Source: an uncultured Selenomonadaceae bacterium (GTDB lineage: Bacteria; Bacillota; Negativicutes; Selenomonadales; Selenomonadaceae). Taken from it: a stretch of 64,000 nt of DNA. Numbering within the stretch: the first letter of the stretch is position 1; each line of letters opens with the position of its first letter. Shown here piece by piece: positions 44,313 through 46,123 of this stretch. The stretch spans positions 1-64,000 of the forward strand of contig CAJOHG010000011.1 of NCBI GenBank assembly GCA_905234395.1, read 5' to 3'. A program made the translations under genes and the position numbers. A model generated the notes under the pieces. It was not told the origin of the DNA, did not search any database, and was given only the letters and a program-made list of their open reading frames with translations.

Positions 44313-44386
44313 TGCCACGACCTCCGAAAATTTTTCGCCATTATATCACGTCGTCGCGCAAAAAAATAAACCGCTTTGACGGCGGC

Positions 44387-44414
44387 TTGAAAATTTTTTC
44401 GACCGTGATAAAAT
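44387..44414 (+). promoter_or_regulatory. Promoter of the small-peptide RNA
   Basis: TTGAAA (44387-44392), 16-bp spacer, TAAAAT (44409-44414). Confidence 0.6.
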
Positions 44415-44440
44415 AATCGCGTGCTTGTTGCCAATAAAAC

Positions 44441-44475
44441 GGCAGGCGGTTGAGACTGCCCTCGGAAAGGAGGGC
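44441..44475 (+). promoter_or_regulatory. RBS-sequestering leader structure
   Basis: GCCCTC (44458-44463) pairs perfectly with GAGGGC (44470-44475) and occludes the GGAGG ribosome site. An upstream GGCAG (44441-44445) can instead pair with CTGCC (44456-44460), which shares bases with the first stem. The two hairpins are mutually exclusive, as in switchable leaders. Confidence 0.65.
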
Positions 44476-44483
44476 AACCGACG

Positions 44484-44558
44484 ATGTTTAAAATCATCGT
44501 TTGCGTGGTTATCTTGACGGTAATAATCCTCTTGATACTCACAAATACAGCCGCCTAA
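44484..44558 (+). CDS. 24-residue hydrophobic peptide, type I toxin-like
   Basis: Encodes MFKIIVCVVILTVIILLILT followed by NTAA: one membrane helix with a short charged N-terminus. It has a strong GGAAAGGAGG ribosome site that lies inside a perfect hairpin, its own promoter and a rho-independent terminator about 75 bp after the stop. This layout (short stable RNA, sequestered ribosome site, tiny membrane peptide) is that of type I toxin genes. The antisense partner is not clearly seen, although a weak minus-strand promoter may lie near 44600-44630. Too short for standard gene finders. Confidence 0.65.
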   Translation: MFKIIVCVVILTVIILLILTNTAA

Positions 44559-44634
44559 GCTCCGACACAGCACGGGCGACTAACCTTTAGTTGTACCAGA
44601 CATATTTTTGAGGGCTAACCGCTTTGACAAGCAC

Positions 44635-44665
44635 AGCGTCCTGTTTTTGTAGTGACGCTTTTTTG
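44635..44665 (+). terminator. Terminator of the small-peptide RNA
   Basis: AGCGTC pairs with GACGCT across a 13-base loop, followed by six to seven T. Confidence 0.8.
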
Positions 44666-44752
44666 TTGCTGACGAAATTATAATCGCCGCGAGAAATTTT
44701 GGCAAGAAAAATTTTGCAACGTTACTTCCGCGCCGAAGACGTTAAAAAATTT

Positions 44753-46123
44753 TCAGCTCGTGAAGAACATGTGCGCAACCGGTGCCGCGATAAACAGGCT
44801 GATGATTGTGCGTTCAAGGAAGAGAATAAAAAGTTCGGGAAGATTGACGGGAATTTTTGAACCGAGAATCAGCCCGCCGACTTCCGACAAATAAATTAAC
44901 TGCGTGACCGAGATGACCGCCACGATAAATTTTGCCATCGGACTGGTGATTGTGCCCGCTGCCAAGACTGACGGTGTGAACATGTCCGTGAAGCCGACGA
45001 TCATTGTTTTGGAAACTTCCACGGCTTGAGGAACGTCCAAAAGTTGCAACAGCGGCAGGAACGGCAAGCCGAGCGTGTCGAAAATCGTCGTGTGATTCGC
45101 CAAGGTCAAAGCCAACGTTCCTATGCACATGACGACCGGCAAAACTCCAAACCACATGCCCGCCGCATTTTTGAAAGCACCTTCCATGAATTGTTCAAAG
45201 CCGCGATGTTCGCCGACACGTTCACGCGCCAAAGCCAGTCCGTATTGAAATGATGTCGTGTAGCCTTCGGGAAGAGATTCGCCCATTGCTTTGCCGGGAA
45301 CCAAGTATTCGTCTTTCTTCAAGCTTAGCGGCGGGATTCTCGGCAAAATCAGTGCGCAGACGATACCGATTGCGCAGATTAAAAGATAGTAGAGACCGAA
45401 ATATTCCATTAAGTCGACTTGCGCCAAAACGACGATTGAAAACGTGATTGACACGGCGGAAAAAGTCGTCGAGATAATTGCCGCCTCGCGTTTGGAATAG
45501 TAGCCGCCTTCGTATTGATTCGCAGTCAACATAACGCCGAGCGTGCCGTCACCAATCCAGCTCGTTATGCAGTCGACAGCCGCGCGACCGGGTATCGTGA
45601 ACAGCGGACGCATAATTTTTGTCAACATTGCGCCGATGAATTCGAGCAGCCCGAAATCCAACAGCAACGGCAATAAAAGTCCGGCAAGCAAGAAAATTAC
45701 GACGAGAACGGTCAGCAAATCGTGCAGGACAAAGCCTCCGTTGTCGGCACTGGTTATCAAGCCGATTGTGCTGTCGGGATCTTCCGCGTCGACGCCGAGA
45801 TAAGTCAGCCAAATGAAAATCGCGCCGACGATTCTAATCACGACCCAAATTGCCGTCGTCGAGAAAGTGTTTGCGACAATCGGATAAGTCGCGATGAAAT
45901 TCGGTTTGCCGAGAAAAATTATGCCGAGAATTGCCGACAACGTTACAATTCCCACGCACAGCATTGGCAGAAAATCGCCAATCGCGTTGCTGATGATGTC
46001 CGCGACGATTTTCACGACGATTGTCCAGCTCCCGTCGTATTGCACGGGAATCATAAACAAGATAATCCCGATGATTGACGGCACCAAAAATCCCGCCAAA
46101 GAGCCCTGTTGTTTGTTTTCCAT
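44753..46123 (-). CDS. YjiH-family membrane transporter (Gate domain)
   Basis: 456 residues, about eleven helices. Members carry two nucleoside-recognition (Gate) domains. Traits here are the GDFLPMLCVGIVTLSAILG start of the first, GRAAVDCITSWIGDGTLGVML in the middle, and VGFTDMFTPSVLAAGTITSP with a conserved Asp. The cargo is not established. Start at ATG 46123 (AAGGAG 6 bases upstream), with an extended -10 TGCTATAAT at 46181-46189. Single-gene unit. Confidence 0.82.
   Translation of the reverse strand: MENKQQGSLAGFLVPSIIGIILFMIPVQYDGSWTIVVKIVADIISNAIGDFLPMLCVGIVTLSAILGIIFLGKPNFIATYPIVANTFSTTAIWVVIRIVGAIFIWLTYLGVDAEDPDSTIGLITSADNGGFVLHDLLTVLVVIFLLAGLLLPLLLDFGLLEFIGAMLTKIMRPLFTIPGRAAVDCITSWIGDGTLGVMLTANQYEGGYYSKREAAIISTTFSAVSITFSIVVLAQVDLMEYFGLYYLLICAIGIVCALILPRIPPLSLKKDEYLVPGKAMGESLPEGYTTSFQYGLALARERVGEHRGFEQFMEGAFKNAAGMWFGVLPVVMCIGTLALTLANHTTIFDTLGLPFLPLLQLLDVPQAVEVSKTMIVGFTDMFTPSVLAAGTITSPMAKFIVAVISVTQLIYLSEVGGLILGSKIPVNLPELFILFLERTIISLFIAAPVAHMFFTS

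Follow-up and report, generated by a model that had tools for sequence, protein, structure and literature searches.

The window, by which we mean the whole stretch of 64,000 nucleotides of uncultured Selenomonadaceae DNA analysed here, contains at 44387-44665 a short unit that raises two questions: whether it encodes a real peptide and, if so, whether this peptide could be a toxin under RNA control. The original prediction had read the locus as a candidate type I toxin gene with a promoter, a terminator, a tiny peptide frame and a ribosome site locked in a hairpin. We recovered each of these elements: a promoter, a presumed RNA of ~245 nt, a terminator and a 24-codon ORF, overlooked by gene finders, whose ribosome site is held in a hairpin (Table 1). 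With a loop of more than 8, the mRNA terminator escaped a simple terminator scan. Based on the comparison with relatives described below, the locus very likely represents a type I toxin-antitoxin-like module, consisting of a silent-looking mRNA and a convergent antisense gene, in which the toxin action is putative.

Table 1. Coordinates in the window of the predicted elements of the locus
Feature	Position	Strand	Evidence or remark
Terminator-like hairpin 5' of the candidate toxin promoter	44368-44388	-	Present in a minority of copies
Candidate toxin promoter, TTGAAA-16-TAAAAT with extended TG	44387-44414	+	Transcription start inferred at ~44421
mRNA 5' end GUGCUUGU, outer arm of 5'-3' long-distance pairing	44421-44428	+	Perfect complement ACAAGCAC at 44627-44634
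GCGGUU, inner arm of 5'-3' pairing	44446-44451	+	Partner AACCGC at 44617-44622
Shine-Dalgarno (SD) hairpin UGCCCUC/GAGGGCA, GGAGGG inside a 7-bp stem (44457-44463 with 44470-44476)	44457-44476	+	Predicted fold, comparison of copies
Candidate toxin ORF, 24 aa, MFKIIVCVVILTVIILLILTNTAA	44484-44558	+	ORF, family profile match, codon table of 126 copies
Predicted antisense RNA terminator hairpin across the toxin stop codon	44547-44582	-	Strand-specific wobble, parsimony events
Antisense-strand stem AGUCGCC/GGCGGCU, then GUAUUUGUGAG	within 44547-44582	-	Minus-strand terminator-like sites here
3' UTR segment GAGGGCUAACCGC...ACAAGCAC, pairs with 5' UTR	44611-44634	+	Fold and permutation comparisons
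mRNA intrinsic terminator, GCGTC/GACGC hairpin then T6	44635-44665	+	Sequence, found by eye; end ~44665
Convergent antisense promoter, TTGCCA-17-TATAAT	44677-44705	-	Antisense transcription start inferred at ~44670

The peptide and its family

Conservation of the peptide in related genomes, on which the original prediction had been made to depend, was borne out by ~126 distinct coding copies in an uncultured ruminant-gut genus of Selenomonadaceae. With a family profile (A3) built from 26 peptides and a threshold of E<=0.001, we found copies in 45 of 66 same-genus genomes and in 0 of 123 genomes representing 29 other genera of the family, and a class-wide profile search outside the genus gave weak matches at most. 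About one third of the same-genus genomes have no detectable copy, many of them being incomplete. When GTDB contigs were searched with a DNA pattern derived from the conserved 3' end of the coding region, 39 stretches matched, 38 of which belong to Selenomonadaceae/Selenomonadales metagenome-assembled genomes, with named sources that are mostly ruminant gut (goat, sheep, deer, buffalo). One match, on an Actinomadura contig, is taken as chance. No copies were found on plasmids or phages, and viral contigs searched with the exact DNA pattern gave no match, so that a phage or plasmid origin was rejected.

The genome of the window itself carries three copies, namely the window ORF, which matches the profile at E 2e-11, and two paralogues, MFKIIVRVVILTVIILLILTNTAA on C20, with 78% DNA identity to the window locus, and MKRIVWIIIRTIAVTGATLLVLSGHAA on C56, while the family form of the peptide is MFKIIIRVVILTGIILWALTKTAA. 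Copies are often in tandem, as seen in 18 fetched stretches with more than one copy and a spacing of usually 336-476 nt. Their neighbour genes vary from copy to copy: 199 neighbours fall into 107 clusters, and part of the largest cluster consists of open frame lying antisense to the repeats.

Type I toxins are typically small hydrophobic peptides of less than ~60 aa under selection, and the family peptides, with 24-27 aa and a GRAVY of 1.7-2.5, are of this kind. Arg7 is present in 123 of 126 copies and is encoded by all six Arg codons; Leu16 (121/126) and Ile15 (120/126) are likewise kept with varied third bases, and the median dN/dS over codons 3-19 is 0.35, a rough value given saturation. 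Because Arg7 is kept through all six of its codons, the comparison indicates that the peptide is real and is under selection at the protein level. The window copy alone has a Cys at position 7 (TGC at 44502-44504), where its closest paralogue, on C20, has CGC, and this Cys7 form may be a weakened allele.

A predicted convergent antisense gene

The second half of the module, absent from the original prediction, is a gene on the opposite strand. A minus-strand sigma-70 element made of a TTGCAA/TTGACA-like box, a spacer of usually 17 nt and TATAAT lies mostly 110-140 nt past the stop codon (~115). At a score of at least 10, this antisense promoter was found in 111 of 125 copies versus 2.8 in shuffles and 24 on the plus strand; the expected number of such sites is 0.0275 per 160 nt on one strand of the window. 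For comparison, the sigma-70-like toxin promoter scored at least 10 at the same distance in 107 of 125 copies. Since the antisense promoter is kept in 32 of 34 copies with a same-strand upstream neighbour and in 42 of 47 with a same-strand gene downstream, it is independent of the neighbour genes. Thus, nearly all copies carry, as judged by sequence only, an antisense gene with its own promoter and complementary to the toxin mRNA.

Where the antisense RNA would end is suggested by the hairpin formed by the last codons of the peptide, ACA GCC GCC TAA, and the segment directly past the stop. A hairpin serving the mRNA is expected to drift via G·U pairs on the mRNA, whereas one serving the antisense RNA would drift via C·A on the mRNA, which corresponds to G·U on the antisense strand. 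In 80 copies examined at six pairs, departures from perfect pairing in the stop hairpin were 57 of the G·U-on-antisense type versus 4 of the G·U-on-mRNA type, the opposite of the pattern in the 5'-3' helix of the mRNA (73 on the mRNA versus 7 on the antisense strand). Since the protein constrains the coding arm, events were compared within the 3' arm alone to avoid this confounder; there, parsimony on a tree built without the hairpin columns gave 37 G/A events, tolerated by antisense wobble, versus 4 C-to-T events, tolerated by mRNA wobble. The stop-codon hairpin therefore behaves as expected of an antisense RNA terminator that overlaps the final toxin codons. More generally, such a strand G·U asymmetry can tell on which strand's RNA a hairpin acts, and can thereby reveal antisense genes without RNA-seq.

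Given that the pairing of this hairpin is kept via antisense G·U, the antisense RNA probably ends at ~44537, which, from a start at ~44670, would make it ~130 nt long. The requirements of the overlapping terminator also account for the frozen C-terminal codons, Ala being encoded by GCC in 228 of 233 cases versus 18 of 116 elsewhere, and Lys by AAA in 71 of 75 versus 39 of 87. The sequence that most frequently follows the stem on the minus strand is GTTTTGCT or GTTTTCGT, and the antisense T-tract is weak in copies with Gly-type peptides. In some copies a further minus-strand terminator precedes the toxin promoter, exemplified in the window by 44388-44368, and this hairpin is a possible backstop against antisense read-through. 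On the mRNA side, a T-run terminator is found 80-140 nt past the stop in most copies.

The mRNA fold and the ribosome site

The ~245-nt RNA is predicted to fold at -89.1 kcal/mol versus -63.9 in shuffles (z -5.4), and GGAGGG is sequestered in its 7-bp hairpin in the minimum free energy structure and in 12 of the 12 suboptimal structures listed. This local SD hairpin is present in 104 of 114 copies, with compensatory changes in one pair. The original prediction had also invoked an alternative hairpin, formed with upstream sequence, by which the ribosome site would be released. We rejected this element, since upstream pairing of at least 5 bp with the anti-SD arm is depleted among the copies, being found in 1 of 104 versus 28 when the upstream sequence was shuffled.

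The comparison points to a pairing of the two ends of the mRNA. RNAalifold on 104 copies paired the 5' end with the 3' UTR (UGCUUGA/UCAAGCA and GGCGGUUU/AAACCGCC) and also found the SD hairpin and the terminator. The outer 5'-3' helix is recovered in this 104-copy alignment and is lacking in the RNAalifold result for A4, an alignment of 80 sequences, because the ends align poorly. In A4, the inner 5'-3' helix has 97.2% of its cells paired, 6 of its 8 pairs show double changes, and its covariation taken together with that of the SD hairpin is 0.268 versus 0.209 in shuffles (0/500) and <=0.15 in slid versions, all to be read knowing that the copies are related by descent, so that counts are not independent and covariation-type counts are inflated by kinship. 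The outer helix varies in sequence yet stays complementary, as GUGCUUGU/ACAAGCAC in the window and as UUGAACUUG/CAAGUUCGG, GUACCUG/CAGGUAC or AGUGCC/GGUGCU in other copies; its cognate mean score is 14.8, versus a maximum of 13.2 in 2000 permutations among copies. Both prediction and covariation thus indicate a sequestered ribosome site and a 5'-3' pairing, as in type I toxin mRNAs.

The GAGGGC of the 3' UTR segment at 44611-44634 is also complementary to the anti-SD arm, and the match of this SD-like segment to the arm co-varies among copies (cognate 15.0 versus a maximum of 14.1 in permutations). Because of this covariation, one might propose a three-way RNA switch, in which GGGGCU/GAGGGC, located just before AACCGCC, mimics the SD, competes for the anti-SD arm and opens the ribosome site, until an antisense RNA with a 5'-UTR-like 5' region captures that 3' end and silences the toxin. 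We regard such a switch as rather doubtful. The SD hairpin is predicted to be closed in the full-length and in the 3'-truncated RNA alike, with an SD unpaired probability of 0.23 when the 3' element is free and of 0.21 when it is blocked or removed; a thermodynamic opening of the SD by the 3' UTR is therefore not predicted and was rejected as such.

The candidate toxin module, its alternatives and known systems

Considering the above results, the type I reading of the original prediction is supported by the conserved peptide and by an antisense gene identified by comparison, whereas the part of its mechanism that relied on the alternative hairpin is not supported. Against this reading stand the kinship of the copies, the same-genus genomes in which no copy was detected, the weak T-tract of the Gly-type copies, the Cys7 of the window copy and an SD hairpin predicted to be closed even in the truncated RNA. 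In the mechanism we propose, the full-length mRNA would be made in a translation-silent form and, during growth, an antisense RNA of ~130 nt would pair with its 3' UTR, causing the mRNA to be degraded or held closed. Upon loss of the antisense RNA or processing of the mRNA, the peptide could be made and might insert in the inner membrane, leading to growth stop or cell harm. Both toxicity on overexpression and neutralisation by the antisense RNA, which define type I systems, are putative here.

It seems unlikely to us that the gene encodes a small, non-toxic regulatory membrane peptide that is merely by coincidence under antisense RNA control. Selection on the peptide does speak for function and not for toxicity, but the many divergent and often tandem copies, the silent-mRNA layout and a cis-antisense gene nearly everywhere fit the control of a toxin better than they fit a regulator with a single target, and no common neighbour gene emerges from the 107 clusters. 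We find it very improbable that the peptide is a secreted signal or the precursor of a pheromone with the conserved C-terminus T-x-T-A-A as its signal: the profile searches gave one very weak match to a Phr-type NCBIfam model (11 bits, below the cut-off of 35), the C-terminus is conserved at the codon level in a way explained by the overlapping antisense terminator, and what is conserved at the protein level is the central Arg7 and the hydrophobic core. Nor does a receptor gene recur next to the copies.

A short ORF with hairpins and a terminator could also recall a leader peptide or attenuator of a neighbour gene. However, most copies have a convergent gene on their downstream side, and transcription of the unit is self-contained; an operon leader was rejected since the neighbours vary among copies, and we give this explanation almost no credit. 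Equally little can be said for an intergenic repeat or a structured non-coding RNA in which the ORF is incidental. Such an element would account for the strong RNA structure and the many copies and is contradicted by the six Arg codons at position 7 and the dN/dS; in addition, no transposase or terminal repeats were seen.

Returning to the toxin-antitoxin reading, we asked how the module relates to described systems. Searches of Pfam, NCBIfam, PADLOC, PDB and Rfam gave no match above threshold, and no Rfam family matches the window. Among the closest known systems is aapA/IsoA of Helicobacter pylori, which combines a short membrane peptide, several copies and an antisense RNA with a full-length mRNA showing 5'-3' long-distance pairing and local SD-sequestering hairpins (PMC6733600). 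All these features are common to both, with no sequence similarity seen; unlike aapA/IsoA, our family has a strong SD hairpin that persists in the fold of the truncated RNA and an antisense RNA predicted to cover the 3' UTR. By analogy with aapA, the full-length mRNA may thus be closed by its 5'-3' pairing (PMC6733600). In bsrG/SR4 of Bacillus subtilis, the antisense RNA overlaps the 3' end of the toxin mRNA and controls both the SD and mRNA decay, and capture of the 3' UTR might similarly repress or destroy the mRNA here (PMC8309996). The bsrG toxin, in contrast, has 38 aa and lies on a prophage, whereas our family has 24-27 aa, is multicopy and has no phage match and no profile match.

The Fst/Ldr superfamily also comprises short membrane type I toxins, for which a motif APXXXGXXX/PXXXGC has been reported (PMC8309996); the motif is absent from A3, which has no NCBIfam or Pfam match above cut-off. 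The Ibs/Sib and ShoB/OhsC systems of E. coli have hydrophobic toxins of 19 and 26 aa (PMC8309996). These are small hydrophobic peptides like ours, and the profile searches gave no similarity. Ibs is present in multiple copies, and the antitoxin arrangement of both systems differs from that of our family. On this comparison of profiles and motifs, the family is without detected sequence relation to known type I systems, and its members are very probably RNA-controlled (type I) toxin genes of a new family, with putative toxicity.

According to a paper from 2025, the type I systems known so far are restricted to few phyla and difficult to predict (PMC12390103). Among the open-access papers searched, none mentions 'type I toxin-antitoxin' together with Selenomonadales, and the one paper that combines the term with Negativicutes deals with thioredoxins. 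What is offered here is a family of ~126 copies, overlooked by gene finders, in which comparison supports the peptide as well as the antisense RNA.

Some minor observations concern the surroundings and the variants of the family. Tracts of the AAAATTTT type occur between genes, at 44327-44338, 44389-44399 and 44706-44755 of the window and genome-wide, and their recurrence explains why the first ~35 bases of the locus match dozens of sites in the genome. Beside a full copy in L085, two shorter relatives ending MLRMMFFVVLILWLLTNTAS (minus-strand offsets 432-552 and 746-866) are possibly a derived or decaying form, and a frame ending ISIVVLVIGTKTAA that adjoins an intact copy in L109 (357-453) appears to be the relic of a further copy. 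Finally, genome G082 (L070, L141, L142 and L143) holds a divergent subfamily, often in tandem pairs, with a Cys near the C-terminus and ends that are mostly VLCTK(I/V/A)AA.
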